Below, in pieces: positions 944 through 9,679 of a stretch of 9,679 nt of DNA. The DNA comes from Planctomycetota bacterium (lineage in GTDB: Bacteria; Planctomycetota; Planctomycetia; Pirellulales; Pirellulaceae): NCBI GenBank assembly GCA_026692885.1, contig JAPLNJ010000131.1, positions 1 through 9,679 on the forward strand, written 5' to 3'. Positions within the stretch are counted from its first letter, which is position 1; the number at the start of each line of letters is the position of its first letter. The notes beneath the pieces were generated by a model. The model made no database searches, was not told where the DNA came from, and saw only the letters and a program-made list of their open reading frames with translations. A program made the position numbers and the translations under genes.

Positions 944-3900
944 GAGGGTCCGGGAATCGCGGACTACGGGCAGGTGACCCCGGGTTGGTTCGGCGCCGTG
1001 CCTCAGATCTACACCGGAGTTGATGCCGTCACCACCAGCGGCCTGACCAACGGGAGCGACAGTCGTCAGACCGACGCCGGCTGGCCGCGCTGGATCGTGC
1101 GACTGAACGCCGACGACGCCGGGCACGCCAGTTCGCCGCGGAACGCCGAGCCACTGCTGAATGACGGGACCGTCGACTTCCAGGTGATTCGCGGCTTGGG
1201 TCTCCCCGGCCAGGTACTCGTCCGAGCCTTCGCCACCGCCGCCGACTCGCGTGCGGCGCTGGCCGCGAATCCCCACGTGGCCGCATTCGAAGCGGATAGT
1301 TTGGTCCAGGCCCAGGTGCTGCCCAACGATCCGGATTTCGGGTCGATGACGGACTTGCACAACGTAGGCCAGTTCAACTCGACGCTCGACGCCGACATTG
1401 ATGCACCAGAAGCTTGGGACCTGAACACGGGCAGCACCAACGTGGTCGTGGGCGTGATCGATTCCGGTATCGACGTAACGCATCCAGACTTGTACTTGAA
1501 CGTCTGGTTGAATCAAGGCGAAATTCCGGCGGGCCTGAAGACTCAACTGAGCGACACCGACGGCGACGGGCGGATCACCTTCTATGACTTGAATGATTCT
1601 GCGAACGCGTCGTTGGTGAGGGACACGAACGGGAATTCGTATATCGACGCCCAGGATCTACTGAATGATCTGCACTGGGGCGACGGTCTCGACACGGACC
1701 ACAATGGATTCGTGGATGACTTCTTCGGGTGGAACTTCCGCGTAGCCGCCAACGAACCATTTGCGCCGAACGACCCACGCGATACGCTCGGACACGGCAC
1801 GCATGTGGCGGGGACGATCGGCGCTGTTGGCGACAACGGCCGTGGAGTGACGGGGATCAACTGGCGGTCGTCGCTGATGGCGCTGAAGTTCCTGGACGAC
1901 AGCAATCAGGGGTTGACTTCGGATGCCGTCCTCGCGGTGAACTACGCCACGATGATGCGCACGGACTTCGGTGAGCCGGTCCGGGTATTGAACGCCAGTT
2001 GGGGACAGTCCGGCGGGTACAGTTCCGCGTTACGCACGGCGATCGAGGCGGCGGGCGAAGCCGGGATGCTGTTCATCGCTGCGGCCGGTAACGGCAATAT
2101 CCTGGGACAGGGCATGGACATTGACCGTCAGCCGTTCTACCCGGCCAGCTACGACCTGGACAACATCATCGGTGTGGCGGCCACCGGGCCGAACGACGAG
2201 TTGGCTCGTTTCAGCAACTACGGTGCGACCTCCGTCGACCTAGGGGCGCCGGGCATCGGCGTGCTCAGCACGTTACCCGGCGGCCGCTACGGCACGGCAA
2301 ACGGGACCAGCATGGCCGCGCCGCACGTGGCGGGCGCGGCGGCGTTGGTCTGGTCCGACGCTTCGCAGGCCAGCTTGGCCGAGGTGCGTCAGGCAATCCT
2401 GGGAGCTGCGAATCCGTTGGCCCAGCTCGACGGACTGACCGTAACCGGCGGACGCTTGAACGTTCATGGAGCCCTGGAGTCGGACGCCTTCGCGCCACGC
2501 GTGGTCTCGGTAACTGCCCCCAACATCACAGTGGCTGGAGGCTCAGACAACCTGATTACCATACAGTACCAGGACCGTTGGGGCATGGACGAGACCAGTC
2601 TGGACGATGGCGACATCCTGGTGTCTCGGCAGTGGGGCCCCAAGCACAAGATTCCAGCGACGCTCGTGCCGGGATCGGTCAGAGTCGCCGACGAGGGCAG
2701 GGAGTTGACGGCGAGCTACCGCGTGGCGGCTCCCGATGGGACGTGGGACCCGTTGGATTATGGCCCCTATCTGGTCACGATCGTCGAAAACGAGGTCAGC
2801 AACAACAGCGGCCTAACGGTACCGGGTGCCTCGATTGGTGAGTTCACAGTCCGCATCGTGGATTCCAAGGTGTTTTTCGTGAATCCATCCGAGGATGCCG
2901 TCGATGCGAACGTCGGCGACGGAATCTGCGCCGGCGCGAACGGGCAATGTACCCTACGGGCGGCCGTTCAAGAGGCCAACGCGGCTGCGCCGGCCGCCCG
3001 TACCGTGATTTTGGAGAAAGGCACGTTTGAACTGGGCATTCCGCCGGTGCCCGATTCGGCGGTGCAGTTTCCGACTCCTGCCGGTTGCGTTCTGAACGGT
3101 GGGATTCAGACGTGGTCCAACGACAGCACAGGCGATCTGGATATCCTTGGGAACATTACCATCGTCGGCGACGATGCGGCAACCAGTATCGTCGACGCGG
3201 ACGGAATGGATCGCGTATTCCGGGTCTATCCTGATGCAACGCTGAATCTTCAGCGAATCGGCATGACCGGAGGCCACGTGACGGACGTGAGCGGTGGGGG
3301 GATTTTGAGTATGGGCACGTTGCACCTGAATCTCGTCACGGTGGCCAATCACCGGGCGGACGGCAGCTCTGGCTTCGGTGGAGGTCTCGCGATATGGGGG
3401 GGTGTCACCACGATGTTCGACAGCACGGTCCGTGACAACCAAGCGGATAGTGGCGGCGGGCTGTTTGTCTGCAACCAAGCCACTGTGGACATCGCGGGCA
3501 GCACCTTGATGACCAATGTTGCGGCAGTTGGCGGCGGCGGGGTATACGCCTTCCGCGGGGCTGTTGACGTCACCAATAGCACGTTATCAAGCAATGAATC
3601 GCAATCGGGCAGTGCGATCTACGCCTCGGCAGCCGAGGACGACTACAGTTTCTACTTTCCTTCGCTCAGCGCCGACGGACGGTTTGTCGCTTTCGAATCC
3701 AACTCGTCGAATCTAGTGCCCGGAGACACCAACGGCTGGAGAGACGTGTTCGTTCTCGACCGCCAAACTCGCACGGTTGAGCGGGTCAGCGTCGCAGAGG
3801 ACGGGGCCCAAGGCAACGCTGAAAGCACTTGGCCGTCTCTGAGCGCGGATGGACGATTTGTCGCCTTTCAATCGAGGGCGTCGAATCTGGTGCCCGGAGA

Positions 3901-6900
3901 CACGAACGACTCGGTGGACGTGTTTGTCTTCGACCGCCAGACGCGAACCATCGAGCGGGTCAGCGTGGCGGGCGACGGGACCCAAGGCGACTTCGACAGC
4001 AACTCGCCGTCGCTGAGCGCCGACGGGCGATTCGTCGCCTTCGAATCCATCGCGTCGAATCTCGTACCAGGAGACACCAACGGGGAGAGTGACGTGTTCC
4101 TGTTCGACCTTCAGAACGGCACGATCGAACGTGTCAGCGTCGCAGAGAACGGCTCGCAGGGCAACAGTAGCTCGCATCCATCGCTGAGCGAAGACTCGCG
4201 GTTTGTCGCGTTCGAATCCAACTCGTCGAATCTGGTGCCCGGAGATACCAACGGATGGGGAGATGTGTTCGTTCTCGACCGCCAAGCCGGTACGGTCGAG
4301 CAGGTCAGCGTGGCGGACGATGGGACCGAGGGCAACGGCTTTAGCTACTTCCCCTCGCTGAGTGCGGACGGCCGGTTCGTCGCCTTTGAATCCTCGGCGT
4401 CCAACTTGGTGACCGGAGATACCAACGGGGCGAGCGACATGTTTGTCTTCGACCGGGAGTCCGCGACAATCCAACGGGTCAGCGTCGCGAACGACGGGAG
4501 CGAGGGCAACGGCATGAGCGATTACCCATCGCTGAGCGCGGACGGGCGGTTCGTCACTTTTCACTCTGACGCGTCGAATTTAGTGCCTGGAGACACGAAT
4601 GTTTCGCGAGACGTGTTTGTCTTCGACCGGCAGACCGCCAGGATCCAGCGAGTCAGCATCGCGGACGACGGGAGTCAGGGTAGCGCGGATAGCCAGTTGC
4701 CAGTGCTAAGCGCCGACGGTCAGTTCGTCGCATTCCTATCCTTCGCATCAAACTTGGTGCCCAACGAGACGAAAGACGGAGACATGTTTGTCTTCGACCG
4801 CCAGAACGGAACATTGGAGTGGGCGGGATTCGCTTCGTCCTCAGTTCTCCTCGAGAGTGTCACGGTAGCACAGAACAAAACGTCGGTTGGAGCGGCGGTG
4901 GATGGCGGGCCTCACACGGCGTCGATCCGACCGGTGCGCACTCATAATTCGCTGTTTGTCGCCAACCAGCTCTTCGACTTGATAGGAAGTGAGTCGCTGG
5001 GTCATAATCTGTGGGAATATGCCGTGGTTACGCCTCAGGCCAGTGACCAGGTCGTGCCCTACACTCAACCGGTGGTGGGACCGCTTCAACCCAACGGTGG
5101 ACCGACTTGGACACACGCGCTCATTCCAGGAAGTTTTGCTATCGACGCAGCCGACCCATTCGACTACCCGAATGCGGATCAACGAGGCCTCGCGCGGCCT
5201 CAAGACGGCGATGGCCAAGAGGGAAGTCGCGCGGATATTGGTGCGGTGGAATTGTTCTACGCGACGATCGAGGGGGCGGTCTTTTTGGATCGCAACCGCA
5301 ATGGGATAAGGGAAGCGGTCGAGCCTGGCATGCCAGGCTGGCCGGTGTGCGCAGACCTCAACAGCGACGGACGGTGCGACAGCAGCGAGCCGCAGGCTTG
5401 GACTCGCGAGGATGATCCCACCACTTTTGCGTTGCAGGAGGATGGGTGGTTCTCATTTGGCGAGTTAAGTCCGGGCAGCTTGGGTGTTGCCATCGCGATC
5501 CAAGCCGACTGGGCGCTGACTTTCGCTGATCTACGCCGGGTCAGCACGGCAGAGAACGGGATTCAGGGCAACGGCTCCAGCATGTCCCAGACGTTGAGCG
5601 CAGACGGGCGGTTCGTCGCCTTCGTGTCCTCGGCATCCAACCTGGTGCATGGAGACACGAATGGCCAGCGCGACGTGTTTGTCGTCGACCGTCAGAGCGG
5701 CTCGGTCGATCGGGTCAGCGTCGCCGATGATGGCACGCAGGGAATCAGTGGCGGCGGTAGCTACGACACGCCCCCTTCGCTGAGCGCAGACGGGCGGTTC
5801 GTCGCCTTCGAGTCGTCATCTTCAAACTTGGTGCCCGGAGACACGAACGGCAGGGACGACGTGTTTGTTTTCGACCGCCAAACCGCCACGGTCGAGCGGG
5901 TCAGCGTAGCGGACGACGGGACCCAGAGCAATCGTAGCAGCTTTTCGCCGTCGCTGAGCGCGGACGGTCGCTTCGTCGCCTTTGAGTCCGAGGCGTCGAA
6001 TCTGGTGCCCGGAGACACGAATGGCCAGCAAGATGTGTTCGTATTCGACCGGCAAACCCGCACCGTCGCGCGGGTCAGTGTGGCGGAAGACGGTACGCAG
6101 GGGAATGACTTTAGCGATTCCCCGACGCCAAGTGCGGACGGGCGATTCGTGGCGTTCAGATCCTCGGCATCGAACTTGGTGCCCGGAGACATAAACGGGT
6201 TTTCGGATGTGTTTGTCTTCGACCGCCAAGCCGGCACCGTCGAACGGGTCAGCGTGGCGGACGACGGGACCCAGGGCAATCACTATTGCTATTACCCGAC
6301 ACTGAGCGCGGACGGCCGCTTCGTCTCCTTCATGTCTGGGGCATCCAACCTGGTGCCCGGAGACACGAATAACAGGTTCGACGTGTTTGTTTTCGACCGG
6401 CAAACCGATTCGGTCGAGCGTGTCAGCGTGGCTAATGGCGGAATCCAGAGCAATGGCTTTAGCTATTCCCCGACGCTGAGCGCGGACGGACGCTTCGTCG
6501 CCTTCTATTCCCAAGCATCCAACTTGGTGCTCGGAGATACCAACGGCGAGGACGACGTATTTGTCGTCGACCGGGAGAGCGGGACGATCCAACGGGTGAG
6601 CATCGCGGAGGACGGAACCCAGGGCAACGGACAGAGCAATGCACCGACGCTGAGCGCGGACGGCCGGTTCGTGGCTTTCGCTTCATTTGCTTCAAGCCTC
6701 GTTTCCGGAGACACGAATCGCGGGGCAGACGTGTTTGTGGCCTATAACTCCCTGATTTCCGAGGCTCCTACCTATCCAGTCTGGGTGTATGCAGGCCAAG
6801 TTCTTTCGAATGTCGACTTGGGAGTAGCACCGAATCCTGGCGAAATTCGGGGCAGAGTGTTCGAGGATCTGATCGCCAACGGCATCTACGATGCTGGAGA

Positions 6901-9679
6901 ACCGGGCTGGGAAGGTAGCACCGTCTACCTGGATGTCAACGGAAATGAACAGCGGGACCCCGACGAACCCGCGACCCAAGCCGCCGCAGACGGTAGCTAC
7001 TTCTTTTCCGAGTTGCCATCCTACCAGGACTACCAAGTTGGCGTCGTGGTCCCCGCGGGCTTCACGCTGGTTCTCCCGACGCCCGACGAAAACGGCTTGT
7101 GGAAGGTTTTCCTGCCTGCCGGTGGCTCCATCACCGACCGCGATTTTGGATTCCGCGAGATAGCTACCGGTGGCCAGTTTGAAAACGGAGTCCTGGACGG
7201 TCGCGTGTATGTGGACCTCAACGGCAATGGCTCGCAGGACGCAGGGGAAGCTGGACTGGTAGATGTCACGTTGTTTCTGGATTTGGACAATGACGGCGTG
7301 CGCGACTTCGATGAACCAGGGGTTTTCTCGGCCAGCGACGATCCCAACACGCTCGATGTCGACGAAACAGGGCGGTACTCCTTTGACCACCTGGGGAACC
7401 GGCCGTATACCGTGCGCATTCTGGAAGCCGCGTACCACCAGCAGACGACTCCCGTCGGCAACACTTTCTCGCGACAAGCCTACTCGCTGGCCGTGCCCGG
7501 CAACGCGCAGGGCAGTCCCCAGGATGTGGCCGTGGCGGACTTCAACGGCGATGGGGCCAACGATCTGGCAACCGCCGTGTTCGACCGGAACGCGGTCGCC
7601 TTGCTGCTGAACGACGGCACCGGCGCGTTTGCACGTACGCCCCTCGAGATCCCGCTGGCCCCAGCAAACCGTCCATCTGCCGCGCCGCGCGGCTTTGGCC
7701 CCATTGCCTTGCTTGCTGCGGACTTCAATCGCAACGGCCAGCCCGACCTGGCGGTCGTGAACAACATCTCCTCGAACGTCACCATCCTGCTGGACTTCGA
7801 CGGCACGCGCTTCGCCAGCGAGGTGTATGTCACGGTGGGGGTGCTTCCCAACGCGGTAATCAGCGGCGACGTGGACCACGATGGTGATCTGGATCTGGTC
7901 GTGACGAACGAATTCAACAATAACGTGTCCATCCTGCGCAACGACGGCCAGGGCCACTTCACCGCCGATGCCGTCGCCCCTACCGTAGGCAACCATCCCT
8001 TCGGTGTGGCCACGGGGGACTTCAACGAGGACGGGCGGTTGGACTTGGCTGTGGCCGATTTCGGGACGAATCCGGGAGGCGCCGACTTGGGCGACGTGCG
8101 CGTACTGCTGGCCGACGGCTCGGGCGGGTTTCAGTCGTACATCGCCTGCCCCGTGGGATTCGGACCTGCCGCGCTGGTGGTGGGAGATCTGGACGGCGAC
8201 GGACATCTCGACCTGGCGGTAGCCAACTTCCTGTCGGACAACGTGACGGTGTGTCGAGGCCACGGAAACGGTACGTTCACGGCGGTGGCCACGTTGGCCG
8301 GCGGCTCCGGCCCTATGGACATTGATGCCGTCGACCTGGAGGGCGACGGTGATCTGGATCTGCTTGTGACCAGCGGCAAGTCGGAGAAAGTCGGGATTCT
8401 GCGAAACCGAGTCAGTCAGGGTGTCTTCGAGTTCGAGCCAGCGGAGAGTTTTGGCGTCGCGAATTTCCCCGGCGCGTCGCAGATCTCCCTGGCCACCGGA
8501 GATCTGGATGGCAACGGGACGGTGGACTTGGCACTGGCCAACAGTCAGGAGAACAACGTGGTCGTCCACTTGAATACGCTGGTCGGAGGGGCTTATCGCG
8601 TGGCACTCACCGGCACCGAAACCGTGACGGGCCTGGACTTCGGCCTGCAGCCGCTCGACACCACACGGAAGGTGGCCGCGTTCACGCCGAACAGCACGGG
8701 CTTCGTGGCCCGGTTCAACTGGGATTTGGCCGCGAGCGTGTTGAACCTGTACGACCAGGGCGGCGTGCTAGGGCCGGCGGATGTGACGGTCGTGGGCGCC
8801 ACGGTCGGCGAAGTGCGAGGGTCGCTGGTGGTGGATCCGGGGCTGCGGCAAGTGACGTTTATCAAGACCGGCGGACTGCTGGAACCGGATACCTATACCG
8901 TCACGTTGGTCAGCGGCGCCAACGCGTTTCGCGATACTACGGGGAACGTGCTGGACGGGAATGGCGACGGGACCGCAGGCGACAACTACACGACCAGCTT
9001 TGTGGTCGCGGCCCCGGTTGCCAACCGCGTGACGGTCGGCCTGCCGGATTTCGCGCGCGGCTATGGCCAACCGGTCAATCTGCCGGCCAATGACCTGGGC
9101 GCGGGCTTACCGTTGGAGCTGAGCGACGGTCGAGGCGTCTCGCGGGTCGCGTTGACGCTGCACTACGATCCGAGCCTGCTCAACGTGCAGGCGTTCACAC
9201 TCAACAGCACACTGGCATCGCGTGGTGTGTCGGCTCAGTTCAGCGTCGTGTCACCGGGAATCGCCACGTTGCTGGTCAACGGCTCAGGCAGCTTCAGTAC
9301 GGACTCTGGCCCGTTGACGGTGGGAGCCTTCACGGCAGCTGTGCCTGCCACGGCGCCCTACGGCGGTAAACACGTGTTGGATATCGCCGATCTGCACGTG
9401 TTCAACGCTGCGGCAGTGTCGGCGGAATTGCCGGCGGTGGATGACGACGCGATCCATGTGGCGGCCTTCTTCGGGGACACCAGCGGCAGCCGCGGCTACA
9501 ACTCGCCCGATGTGACACTGGTCCAGCGGCTGATCGGCCAGATCAATACCGGCCTGTCCGCCTACCAATTGGCCGATCCACGCTTGCTGGCGGATCTGAC
9601 GCGGAATAACTTGCTGCAGGCGAACGACACGGTCGGTCTCCAACGGGTGATTGGACAGGTGCCGATGGCGAACGTGCCG
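818..9679 (+). CDS. Giant multidomain subtilisin-like (S8) surface protein with three inserted beta-propellers, cohesin and dockerin; 3' end cut by window
   Basis: One frame is open from ATG 818 to the window edge (2,954 codons, no stop). The start is chosen for the AAGGAG ribosome binding site six bases upstream and for the Arg-rich N-terminus typical of large planctomycete surface proteins. Order by residue: Arg-rich leader with LEPRLVL (1-42), I9-like propeptide (about 89-168), S8 peptidase (about 170-554), Ig-like stretch (555-684), CSLREA and beta-helix (685-937, resuming 1340-1480), propeller 1 (938-1339), SdrD_B 1 (1483-1569, resuming 1983-2008), propeller 2 (1570-1982), SdrD_B 2 (2009-2115), SdrD_B 3 (2127-2214, resuming 2590-2612), FG-GAP propeller (2220-2588), Big_5-like (2615-2732), cohesin-like (2737-2865), dockerin-like (2886-2949). 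All four catalytic positions of an active S8 protease are present, so I infer a secreted protease with binding modules. No clear hydrophobic signal peptide is visible. The substrate is unknown. Because the dockerin is nearly complete, the true stop is probably close beyond the edge. Confidence 0.95.
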   Translation, partial: MHLRAWLRKQHQRLGRRSADKRLRARRQSQRRLELLEPRLVLEGPGIADYGQVTPGWFGAVPQIYTGVDAVTTSGLTNGSDSRQTDAGWPRWIVRLNADDAGHASSPRNAEPLLNDGTVDFQVIRGLGLPGQVLVRAFATAADSRAALAANPHVAAFEADSLVQAQVLPNDPDFGSMTDLHNVGQFNSTLDADIDAPEAWDLNTGSTNVVVGVIDSGIDVTHPDLYLNVWLNQGEIPAGLKTQLSDTDGDGRITFYDLNDSANASLVRDTNGNSYIDAQDLLNDLHWGDGLDTDHNGFVDDFFGWNFRVAANEPFAPNDPRDTLGHGTHVAGTIGAVGDNGRGVTGINWRSSLMALKFLDDSNQGLTSDAVLAVNYATMMRTDFGEPVRVLNASWGQSGGYSSALRTAIEAAGEAGMLFIAAAGNGNILGQGMDIDRQPFYPASYDLDNIIGVAATGPNDELARFSNYGATSVDLGAPGIGVLSTLPGGRYGTANGTSMAAPHVAGAAALVWSDASQASLAEVRQAILGAANPLAQLDGLTVTGGRLNVHGALESDAFAPRVVSVTAPNITVAGGSDNLITIQYQDRWGMDETSLDDGDILVSRQWGPKHKIPATLVPGSVRVADEGRELTASYRVAAPDGTWDPLDYGPYLVTIVENEVSNNSGLTVPGASIGEFTVRIVDSKVFFVNPSEDAVDANVGDGICAGANGQCTLRAAVQEANAAAPAARTVILEKGTFELGIPPVPDSAVQFPTPAGCVLNGGIQTWSNDSTGDLDILGNITIVGDDAATSIVDADGMDRVFRVYPDATLNLQRIGMTGGHVTDVSGGGILSMGTLHLNLVTVANHRADGSSGFGGGLAIWGGVTTMFDSTVRDNQADSGGGLFVCNQATVDIAGSTLMTNVAAVGGGGVYAFRGAVDVTNSTLSSNESQSGSAIYASAAEDDYSFYFPSLSADGRFVAFESNSSNLVPGDTNGWRDVFVLDRQTRTVERVSVAEDGAQGNAESTWPSLSADGRFVAFQSRASNLVPGDTNDSVDVFVFDRQTRTIERVSVAGDGTQGDFDSNSPSLSADGRFVAFESIASNLVPGDTNGESDVFLFDLQNGTIERVSVAENGSQGNSSSHPSLSEDSRFVAFESNSSNLVPGDTNGWGDVFVLDRQAGTVEQVSVADDGTEGNGFSYFPSLSADGRFVAFESSASNLVTGDTNGASDMFVFDRESATIQRVSVANDGSEGNGMSDYPSLSADGRFVTFHSDASNLVPGDTNVSRDVFVFDRQTARIQRVSIADDGSQGSADSQLPVLSADGQFVAFLSFASNLVPNETKDGDMFVFDRQNGTLEWAGFASSSVLLESVTVAQNKTSVGAAVDGGPHTASIRPVRTHNSLFVANQLFDLIGSESLGHNLWEYAVVTPQASDQVVPYTQPVVGPLQPNGGPTWTHALIPGSFAIDAADPFDYPNADQRGLARPQDGDGQEGSRADIGAVELFYATIEGAVFLDRNRNGIREAVEPGMPGWPVCADLNSDGRCDSSEPQAWTREDDPTTFALQEDGWFSFGELSPGSLGVAIAIQADWALTFADLRRVSTAENGIQGNGSSMSQTLSADGRFVAFVSSASNLVHGDTNGQRDVFVVDRQSGSVDRVSVADDGTQGISGGGSYDTPPSLSADGRFVAFESSSSNLVPGDTNGRDDVFVFDRQTATVERVSVADDGTQSNRSSFSPSLSADGRFVAFESEASNLVPGDTNGQQDVFVFDRQTRTVARVSVAEDGTQGNDFSDSPTPSADGRFVAFRSSASNLVPGDINGFSDVFVFDRQAGTVERVSVADDGTQGNHYCYYPTLSADGRFVSFMSGASNLVPGDTNNRFDVFVFDRQTDSVERVSVANGGIQSNGFSYSPTLSADGRFVAFYSQASNLVLGDTNGEDDVFVVDRESGTIQRVSIAEDGTQGNGQSNAPTLSADGRFVAFASFASSLVSGDTNRGADVFVAYNSLISEAPTYPVWVYAGQVLSNVDLGVAPNPGEIRGRVFEDLIANGIYDAGEPGWEGSTVYLDVNGNEQRDPDEPATQAAADGSYFFSELPSYQDYQVGVVVPAGFTLVLPTPDENGLWKVFLPAGGSITDRDFGFREIATGGQFENGVLDGRVYVDLNGNGSQDAGEAGLVDVTLFLDLDNDGVRDFDEPGVFSASDDPNTLDVDETGRYSFDHLGNRPYTVRILEAAYHQQTTPVGNTFSRQAYSLAVPGNAQGSPQDVAVADFNGDGANDLATAVFDRNAVALLLNDGTGAFARTPLEIPLAPANRPSAAPRGFGPIALLAADFNRNGQPDLAVVNNISSNVTILLDFDGTRFASEVYVTVGVLPNAVISGDVDHDGDLDLVVTNEFNNNVSILRNDGQGHFTADAVAPTVGNHPFGVATGDFNEDGRLDLAVADFGTNPGGADLGDVRVLLADGSGGFQSYIACPVGFGPAALVVGDLDGDGHLDLAVANFLSDNVTVCRGHGNGTFTAVATLAGGSGPMDIDAVDLEGDGDLDLLVTSGKSEKVGILRNRVSQGVFEFEPAESFGVANFPGASQISLATGDLDGNGTVDLALANSQENNVVVHLNTLVGGAYRVALTGTETVTGLDFGLQPLDTTRKVAAFTPNSTGFVARFNWDLAASVLNLYDQGGVLGPADVTVVGATVGEVRGSLVVDPGLRQVTFIKTGGLLEPDTYTVTLVSGANAFRDTTGNVLDGNGDGTAGDNYTTSFVVAAPVANRVTVGLPDFARGYGQPVNLPANDLGAGLPLELSDGRGVSRVALTLHYDPSLLNVQAFTLNSTLASRGVSAQFSVVSPGIATLLVNGSGSFSTDSGPLTVGAFTAAVPATAPYGGKHVLDIADLHVFNAAAVSAELPAVDDDAIHVAAFFGDTSGSRGYNSPDVTLVQRLIGQINTGLSAYQLADPRLLADLTRNNLLQANDTVGLQRVIGQVPMANVP
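1082..2479 (+). other. Propeptide and S8 (subtilisin) peptidase module
   Basis: Residues about 89-168 resemble an I9-type propeptide (WIVRLN at the start; a stretch with AALAANPHVAAFEAD near the end). The mature domain follows from PNDPDF (169-174). Catalytic motifs are VIDSGID with D215, GHGTHVAG with H326, AAAGN with N425 (oxyanion hole) and GTSMAAPHVAG with S498. The Asp-to-His spacing is 111 residues, against 32 in the textbook subtilisin. The extra length carries three acidic loops of EF-hand/dockerin type: D246-T-D248-G-D250, D269-T-N271-G-N273 and D292-T-D294-H-N296. These probably bind calcium. With all four key residues intact, I infer an active endopeptidase. Confidence 0.93.
2480..2869 (+). 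other. Ig-like linker domain
   Basis: Residues 555-684 follow the peptidase and look like a beta-sandwich. They start with APRVVSVTAPNITVAGG and end with a YLVTIVENEV strand followed by EFTVRI. Similar Ig-like stretches often follow S8 domains in planctomycete proteins. I cannot place it in a named family with confidence. Confidence 0.5.
2870..3628 (+). other. CSLREA-type segment and first half of parallel beta-helix
   Basis: VFFVNPSEDAVDANVGDG opens at residue 685. The motif CTLRAAVQEANA (from C711) is a clear variant of the CSLREA signature (C[ST]LRxAIxxAN). Repeated helix rungs then appear, each with a GGG(L/I/V) start and a short strand such as STLMTN or STLSSN (residues about 800-937). 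This is a right-handed beta-helix of the pectate-lyase-like type, generally used for adhesion or polysaccharide contact. It breaks off at AIYAS (residue 937) and resumes at residue 1340. Confidence 0.8.
3629..4831 (+). repeat. TolB/PD40-type beta-propeller 1: seven tandem repeats
   Basis: The core SLSADGRFVAF (or variant) recurs with Leu codons at 3665, 3839, 4013, 4184, 4358, 4532 and 4706. That gives steps of 174 bases (58 residues) except one of 171. Each unit continues with ASNLVPGDTNG, then DVFVFDRQT, then RVSVAxDGxQGN. Seven units predict a seven-bladed propeller. The acidic GDTNGxxD motif is present in units 1-6 and degraded to NETKDGD in unit 7, so up to six calcium sites are plausible. 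No enzymatic role can be inferred; such propellers usually bind partners. Confidence 0.88.
4832..5254 (+). other. Second half of the beta-helix with choice-of-anchor-Q type end
   Basis: The helix resumes with SVLLESVTVAQNKTSV, then a rung with HNSLFVANQ. It ends with PNGGPTWTHALIPGS, AIDAADP, DQRGLARP and DIGAVEL (residues about 1422-1479). That ending is the familiar C-terminal signature of CSLREA/choice-of-anchor-Q beta-helix proteins, so this part and residues 685-937 belong to the same domain. Confidence 0.8.
5264..5524 (+). other. SdrD_B-type domain 1, N-terminal part
   Basis: IEGAVFLDRNRNGIREAVEPG begins near residue 1484. It is followed by ADLNSDGRCDSSEP and WFSFGELSPGS, the usual order of an SdrD_B (Cna_B-like) domain with calcium-type D-x-N-x-N-G and D-x-N-x-D-G loops. 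The domain stops after ADWALTF (residue 1569). Its last strand is found about 410 residues later, beyond propeller 2. Confidence 0.8.
5525..6760 (+). repeat. TolB/PD40-type beta-propeller 2: seven tandem repeats
   Basis: The same repeat family as propeller 1, with core Leu codons at 5594, 5780, (Pro variant) 6128, 5954, 6302, 6476 and 6650 when read along the gene in order 5594, 5780, 5954, 6128, 6302, 6476, 6650. Steps are 174 bases except the first (186, with a Gly-rich linker GISGGGS). All seven carry a GDxNxxxD acidic motif, so up to seven calcium sites are plausible. The block opens with RRVSTAENG, a lone fourth strand, and the last repeat ends at DVFVAYNSL without its own RVSVA strand. 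The opening strand can therefore close the ring. Confidence 0.88.
6761..6838 (+). other. SdrD_B-type domain 1, C-terminal strand
   Basis: APTYPVWVYAGQVLSNVDLGV (residues about 1983-2003, split here as APTYPVWVYAGQ then VLSNVDLGV) has the form of the closing strand of an SdrD_B domain (a Y.V.V.AGQ strand followed by a 'vdFG' motif, here VDLG). It directly precedes the next SdrD_B domain, just as VDFG-type endings do in tandem arrays. It completes the domain that begins at residue 1484. Confidence 0.7.
6842..7165 (+). other. SdrD_B-type domain 2, uninterrupted
   Basis: EIRGRVFEDLIANGIYDAGEPG starts at residue 2009 (shown as EIRGRVFEDL and IANGIYDAGEPG). DVNGNEQRDPDEP, GSYFFSELPS and a final KVFLPAGGSITDRDFGF follow. 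The loop between FTLVLPTPDENGL and WKVFLPAG is short here. This domain shows what domains 1 and 3 would look like without their inserts. Confidence 0.82.
7196..7474 (+). other. SdrD_B-type domain 3, N-terminal part
   Basis: DGRVYVDLNGNGSQDAGEAG starts at residue 2127. LDLDNDGVRDFDEPG and GRYSFDHLGNRPYTVRILE follow. The chain reaches QQTTPVG (residue 2214), where the FG-GAP propeller begins. The closing strand lies at residues about 2590-2612. Confidence 0.8.
7475..8584 (+). repeat. FG-GAP/VCBS-type beta-propeller: seven repeats
   Basis: Seven acidic FG-GAP/VCBS loops of D-x-(N/D)-x-(D/N)-G-x-x-D-L form lie at residues D2241, D2302, D2351, D2401, D2457, D2506 and D2562, spaced 49-61 residues apart. 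Examples are DFNGDGANDL, DVDHDGDLDL and DLDGDGHLDL. Each is followed by a strand such as NVSILRNDGQGHF. The arrangement matches a seven-bladed, calcium-binding, integrin-alpha-like propeller. The last blade (VVVHLN) lacks the trailing strand; the stretch before the first loop (YSLAVPG to SPQDVAVAD) could supply it. Confidence 0.88.
8585..8653 (+). other. SdrD_B-type domain 3, C-terminal strand
   Basis: GAYRVALTGTETVTGLDFGL (residues about 2592-2611) is a textbook closing segment of an SdrD_B domain: Y.V.L..G..VTG.DFG. Joined to QQTTPVG at residue 2214, it gives a continuous domain. Confidence 0.82.
8660..9016 (+). other. SbsA Ig-like (Big_5-like) domain
   Basis: Residues 2615-2732 open with KVAAFTPNSTGFVARFN. 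FIKTGGLLEPDTYTVTL, then DTTGNVLDGNGDGTAGDN, follow. The order 'argument about extremes, T.GLLEPDTYTVTL, D..GN.LDG' is typical of Big_5/SbsA Ig-like domains in planctomycete proteins. It probably acts as a spacer. Confidence 0.7.
9026..9412 (+). other. Cohesin-like domain
   Basis: Residues 2737-2865 begin RVTVGLPDFARGYGQPVNLP. Diagnostic pieces are GVSRVALTLHYDPSLLNVQ (the strand carrying the YDP.LL motif of cohesins), then SGPLTVGAFTAAVP and the final HVLDIADLHVFN strand. Cohesins are receptor modules that bind dockerins. Here one sits directly before a dockerin in the same chain. Confidence 0.75.
9473..9664 (+). other. Type I dockerin-like domain at the C-terminus
   Basis: The first calcium loop starts at D2887, with S2889, S2891, G2893 and D2898 in the usual positions. 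The helix VTLVQRLIGQ follows. The second loop, D2926-x-T2928-x-N2930 to D2937, lacks the usual Gly but keeps the spacing, and is followed by TVGLQRVIGQ. Dockerins pair with cohesins; in planctomycetes such C-terminal dockerins are frequent, although cellulosomes are not known there. The chain runs on to the window end at residue 2954. Confidence 0.8.

Follow-up and report, generated by a model that had tools for sequence, protein, structure and literature searches.

Domains inserted into a loop of an immunoglobulin-like (Ig-like) stalk domain are known from the CnaA/CnaB pilus adhesins (RrgA, GBS104, Spy0125, and Mfa5), and the insertion principle as such is therefore not new. Both the CnaA and the CnaB fold tolerate domain insertions in loops, and SdrD_B is among the families with predicted intramolecular isopeptide bonds (PMC12617251). 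In Mfa5, a vWF domain lies between strands B and C (PMC7835359), while in integrin alpha a vWA domain is inserted into a propeller (PMC3192720). The staphylococcal B domains (PF17210, SdrD_B; proteins SdrD, SdrG, and UafA) are small, about 13 kDa; those of SdrG and SdrD require more than 2 nN to unfold, and aspartates of the two strands that close the fold, one N-terminal and one C-terminal, bind a calcium ion between them (PMC6232131). Here we describe a giant protein encoded on a 9,679-nucleotide contig of a planctomycete of the family Pirellulaceae (JAPLNJ010000131.1; the whole stretch is referred to as the window), in which an SdrD_B domain is interrupted by a complete propeller just before its last strand. 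Its SdrD_B domains resemble the staphylococcal ones in profile (SdrD 10ps_A, E 5.3e-16) and as Ig-like stalks with D-x-N-x-D-G loops, the calcium-type loop motifs being visible in the sequence, but they carry whole domains in the loop before the last strand. The position differs from that of the Mfa5 insert, the host is SdrD_B with guests of many kinds (including peptidases and propellers) in contrast to the CnaA/CnaB adhesins, and, unlike in integrin alpha, the propeller itself is the insert. The literature searched contains no description of SdrD_B as a host with such breadth and frequency of guests; PMC9210967, which names SdrD_B, makes no mention of inserted or nested domains, propellers, or planctomycetes, nor does PMC12617251 mention planctomycetes.

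One open frame on the forward strand spans the window (818..>9679; 2954 residues, open at the 3' end). Library scans of this frame recovered an S8 peptidase (subtilase, residues 207-534), a CSLREA/choice-of-anchor-Q beta-helix, PD40 and FG-GAP repeats, and three stretches of SdrD_B, whose score over the whole protein (69.5 bits) lies above the curated cut-off of 29.7. The third of these domains is split into an N-part (residues 2128-2214; 7199-7459) and a closing strand (residues 2591-2612; 8588-8653) by a seven-bladed FG-GAP propeller (residues 2215-2590; 7460-8587). The N-part ends with QQTTPVG (residues 2208-2214; 7439-7459) and reaches 37.3 bits against PF17210 when searched alone, as against 24.7, i.e., below the cut-off, when the guest is included. 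On the far side of the propeller, GAYRVALTGTETVTGLDFG (residues 2591-2609; 8588-8644) makes up the closing-strand side, and AYRVALTGTETVTGLDFGLQ, from residue 2592 after G2591, fits the end of a profile based on uninterrupted domains. A closing-strand matrix derived from such domains scored 20.8 here, whereas 20 shuffled versions of the downstream sequence averaged 10.8 and never exceeded 18.1; this comparison is free of selection, since the best window was likewise taken from every shuffle. When N-part and closing strand were spliced, the domain rose to 77.8 bits, against 65.5 for the N-part alone and no more than 69.4 with 30 shuffled strands, although this test is partly selected because the closing strand had been taken as the best-scoring window. 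HMMER with all filters off returned complementary profile pieces (1-91 and 82-104), the second weak by itself at 1.4 bits. Domain 3 is complete, including its last strand, which was found beyond a 376-residue insert.

The insert combines a match to FG-GAP_3 (Pfam E 3.6e-52 on 7463-8590 alone), seven repeats, and a propeller fold of the integrin-alpha type; a loose motif scan detected eight FG-GAP-like motifs in the protein, one in the host (residue 2142) and seven in the insert (residues 2241, 2302, 2351, 2401, 2457, 2506, and 2560). AlphaFold modeled domain 3 (predicted local distance difference test, pLDDT, 83; predicted template modeling score 0.82) with the propeller flanked on either side by strands of the host; the closing-strand blocks (model residues 471-490) stand at pLDDT 74 and 82, and the N-part, divided into nine blocks of ten residues, reaches 73-80 in seven of them. 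Whole models submitted to Foldseek and VIA-align led to propellers and barely covered the host parts. We regard it as confirmed that a single SdrD_B domain, interrupted by an FG-GAP propeller, is made up of residues 2128-2214 and 2591-2612. The original prediction, that QQTTPVG and the later segment flank a single loop before the closing strand with seven FG-GAP repeats between them, is borne out by the shuffle, spliced, and alignment tests and by the family match and motifs of the insert; its closing-strand segment was right, except that the start lies at residue 2591 instead of 2592.

The same arrangement is retained in relatives. From a search in which 7994 candidates were scored (120 listed of 3842 matches), we aligned the window protein (P0001) with the 12 listed proteins having at least 60% identity over 98-100% of the region (n = 13). 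All 13 keep the domain 3 insert and the closing strand, and directly after this strand they switch between two distinct architectures (4 versus 9 proteins), which argues that the strand belongs to the host. In 11 aligned junctions, 56-94% identical to that of the window, six positions of the strand (G, G, R, L, G, and F) do not vary.

Within the window protein itself, domain 2 (residues 2012-2113; 6851-7156; Pfam and profiles) is uninterrupted and serves as an internal control, while domain 1 hosts another guest. Its N-part (residues 1486-1568; 5273-5521) is followed by a PD40 propeller of seven repeats (residues 1569-1984; 5522-6769; identified by Pfam, motif scan, and model) and by the closing strand (residues 1985-2006; 6770-6835). 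PD40 exceeds its cut-off in the whole protein (86 bits versus 20.9), while a TolB of the Tol-Pal system was rejected, the NCBIfam equivalog scoring 56 bits against a curated cut-off of 343.15. Both the closing strand (13.0 versus at most 11.5 in shuffles) and the spliced host (61.2 bits versus at most 57.3 with shuffled strands) of domain 1 are significant, though weaker than in domain 3. The two propellers belong to different families, as predicted, and that of domain 1 interrupts the profile at the same position, pointing to the same loop before the closing strand. A guest inside a stalk-domain loop is seen in both sequence and model for domain 3, in line with the check by structure models proposed earlier, whereas for domain 1 the shared loop rests on sequence, since its modeled host stays below pLDDT 50. 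Among the 13 aligned proteins, the closing strand of domain 1 occurs in all and its N-side with the PD40 insert in 11; the other two (P0029 and P0065) start within the PD40 region. For the domain-1 propeller, set beside that of CylK (7fh6), no PDB chain matched the domain-1 alignment by sequence at E 0.001. In P0046 (residues about 1150-1900), domain 1 carries at least 11 PD40-like motifs compared with seven in the window, perhaps two propellers in one loop.

Searching with the domain 3 N-part alone (37 matches among 186 candidates) brought up non-orthologous proteins with other guests at this place, their types being read from the sequences and precomputed Pfam lists. P0124 (Stieleria sp.) has, beside uninterrupted domains, four N-parts followed by a lactonase-type guest and one by PD40, the closing strand beating the shuffles in three of the lactonase cases; at 1330 the picked strand falls within the lactonase and was not credited. 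Guests listed in P0131 were lactonase-type, glutamine-cyclotransferase-like, and two PD40 (strands significant in two of four), while P0141 has two of FG-GAP type (one significant strand) and P0142 two guests, both with significant strands. Further loci came from G004, the genome holding Rhodopirellula sp. JC639 locus L077, and from G357. There, Pfam assigns three lactonase inserts in L188 (one with a significant strand), four PD40 inserts in L163 (three significant), and one in L188 (significant), and the guest of L182 is a subtilase (E 8.4e-36; strand 22.6 versus 16.2 shuffled). The DUF642 guest of L193 (E 2.5e-18; strand 12.6 versus 11.2) is a weaker case, because the spliced host scores no higher than its N-part. 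In L192, the strand stands at 13.7 versus 13.5 shuffled and beats the shuffles in the spliced test, the scanned stretch (8900-9400) being mainly host. No family was found in Pfam scans of the L049 and L200 inserts; in the spliced test L200 fails and L049 passes by 0.8 bits. Strands that did not beat the shuffles after a guest-bearing N-part were those of L188 (1147 and 1852; lactonase), L163 (1743; PD40), P0124 (2739), P0131 (385 and 2850), and P0141 (1698).

The first mixed set, i.e., 153 proteins plus the frames of 201 loci, held 732 unique domains (457 intact, 270 with N-part only, and five short), but it was not used for frequencies, because it had been gathered through window-based searches and many of the N-part-only domains are other SdrD_B types with a nearby strand. 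Among the split pairs reported by HMMER in an earlier set, 12 of 14 are split at columns 80-95, eight of them in the ortholog group of the window protein; the other two, whose N-parts score 1.3 and 0.5 bits, were dismissed as chance. Hosts were first sought with regular expressions, which yielded 43 N-parts only, and later with profiles.

Frequencies were instead taken from the family of G004, in which 103 of 119 genomes have a match to A5, a profile of uninterrupted domains. We surveyed 60 regions from 37 genomes, taken in order of match strength and not at random, with two G004 contigs and two contigs with short frames set aside. The survey profile (110 uninterrupted domains, 99 columns) gave 246 matches, 161 of them running to columns 95-99 and 53 stopping at columns 75-84; removal of five duplicates and 10 late-starting matches left 231 unique domains starting near the profile start. 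Of these, 158 are intact, and in 42 a closing strand that outscores every one of 50 shuffles lies 117-600 residues further on; the remainder include seven that reach the frame end or the next domain, four short ones, and five with a nearby strand (two significant). The interruption lies at the loop before the closing strand in 41 of the 42 (25 loci, 17 genomes), a number that includes mutual orthologs, e.g., L230 and L232. The exception, L262 at 4104, is split earlier, at about column 66, since its QTFP strand adjoins the closing strand. The loop is thus preferred but not exclusive. SdrD_B domains with propellers at this loop, the object of the planctomycete survey proposed earlier, were found within one family, and the predicted reusable docking loop holds insofar as non-orthologous proteins reuse it; as an idea restricted to propellers and a single site it proved too narrow.

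Guest families were scanned in 39 of the 42 inserts (L262 at 4104 and 4337 and L213 at 4960 were left out). They comprise FG-GAP (eight), PD40 (two), DUF4394, glutamine cyclotransferase, or PQQ_2 (nine, all counted here as propeller-like, five of them below Pfam cut-offs), peptidases (six, i.e., two S8, two gingipain-type C25, and two trypsin), and Beta_helix or NosD (three, one just below cut-off), and 11 had no assignable family. Three inserts with a non-significant strand carry trypsin (L239) and FG-GAP (L214 and L217). The trypsin-type guests of L259, L251, and L239 keep TAAHC, GDSGG, and the R-IVGG start; such starts are those of zymogens, and cleavage there would open the loop with the enzyme still tied by its C-side. 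All three motif types sought are present in the L182 subtilase, whereas L237 and L257 showed no serine motif of the form sought and have GTSQA in its place. HExxH occurs in L222 and L245, but their matches to metallopeptidases do not rise above chance (E 0.08 to 0.2) and were rejected. Guests of about 430 residues in L263 (6735-8045, +) and L249 (3411-4703, +) have no family match; a DDTGSF stretch, seen in L263, gives them a vWA-like look (as in vWA or integrin beta), a reading supported by no library.

Host N-parts cluster by guest type, with 14 changes on a first tree against a shuffled mean of 42.9, and 29 against 45.6 on a second tree for which 70 of 157 intact domains were drawn and some guest labels were author-assigned; host and guest are thus mostly inherited together. 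On the first tree, the PD40 label must change at least twice along well-supported branches (perhaps gained twice, or gained once and lost once); on the second, such branches require no more than one change for any guest type. Both trees have few columns.

The sequences show that the host is split, that relatives conserve the split, and that guests of several families occupy this one loop. We consider it likely that the loop before the last SdrD_B strand accepts guests while the host still closes one sandwich. In these giant planctomycete proteins, the SdrD_B domains would then be stalk modules and this loop their socket: N-part and last strand would together complete a single Ig-like sandwich of the calcium type, like that of the uninterrupted domain 2, and a guest with adjacent ends, e.g., a closed propeller, would be looped out. 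If staphylococcal mechanics hold here, a guest just before the last strand would be bypassed, because the pull would run through the first and last strands, and the guest would lie beside the load path and not in series with it. On this reading, deduced from published mechanics and the sequence, binding or cutting domains could remain folded while the fiber bears force, and the two propellers of the window protein may be platforms for ligand binding. More tentatively, and with somewhat less than an even chance in our estimate, the loop could be an evolved general socket, by which one family builds surface fibers with interchangeable sensors, binders, and proteases beside the load path, host and guest spreading as cassettes.

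Several observations weigh against the socket. Two host blocks of the domain 3 model are at pLDDT 48 and 38, and the domain 1 host is modeled poorly. Of 49 spliced hosts, seven did not beat all shuffles, and in 15 of the 231 surveyed domains the best strand is distant and fails to beat them. Two narrow profiles that join the last blade of the propeller to the closing strand, A1 for FG-GAP and A2 for PD40, run over 392 genomes of the phylum with up to 16 and 15 candidates scored per genome, respectively, matched the repeats, with no full-junction match among the matches listed. A second, rarer insertion site exists at profile columns 27-40 in three domains, with inserts of 131-145 residues: twice in L271 (residues 590-734 and 1880-2022; frame at 5028, +) and once in L233 (residues 108-238; frame at 14257, -), one of them weakly FlgD_ig-like (E 5.4e-4) and the others without clear family.

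Alternatively, the propellers could be separate in-line domains between SdrD_B domains that lack a last strand, the later segment starting the next domain. The Pfam match of domain 3 indeed ends at column 74, and matches to SdrD and UafA chains of solved structure reach no further than profile positions 76-80. However, the segment fits the last columns of the uninterrupted-domain profile, is kept in all aligned relatives although two architectures follow, and is modeled as strands, and we find this explanation very improbable. The insertions might also be true while the split sandwich is no longer stable and acts as a linker only; this would agree with a domain 1 host below pLDDT 50 and with low values at model residues 45-60 of domain 3, but it appears unlikely given the six invariant closing-strand positions and a domain 3 host that is well modeled in most blocks. 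For domain 1, the alignment comprised only six rows. Finally, loops may tolerate any domain with close termini, the site bringing no benefit. The guests share no obvious function, and the clustering of hosts by guest type means that a few events may explain many cases. Yet one loop is preferred (41 cases, as against three at columns 27-40 and a single one near column 66), and trypsin-type guests retain their catalytic motifs; such neutrality has a real chance of being correct, but we think it rather doubtful.

Surface proteins are usually seen as beads on a string. If guests do sit in a socket, these giant proteins seem to follow a second building rule, in which small stalk domains offer a standard site for propellers, lectin-like domains, and peptidases. 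Were the guests off the load path, this would account for enzymes working on a fiber under tension and would provide a natural engineering scaffold for inserts of about 140-600 residues. For annotation, SdrD_B matches end before the domain does, because in these proteins the guest splits off the last strand.

The beta-helix of the window protein (2951-5200; residues 712-1461) is a third host, itself interrupted by a PD40 propeller with some seven repeats. With approximate borders from profile scan and helix-end comparison, its N-part covers 2951-3628, the propeller 3629-4840, and the C-part 4841-5200, all on the forward strand. Of the 10 proteins in which both helix ends were found, PD40 occupies the site in seven and the site is empty in three (P0028, P0045, and P0141). 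Toward the end of the window (9110-9679), there is a weak cohesin-like match (residues 2765-2853, E 0.011), followed by two repeats that we take to be dockerin-like. A 625-residue frame on the opposite strand (6692-8569, -) runs beneath the propeller and is probably a by-product of base composition.

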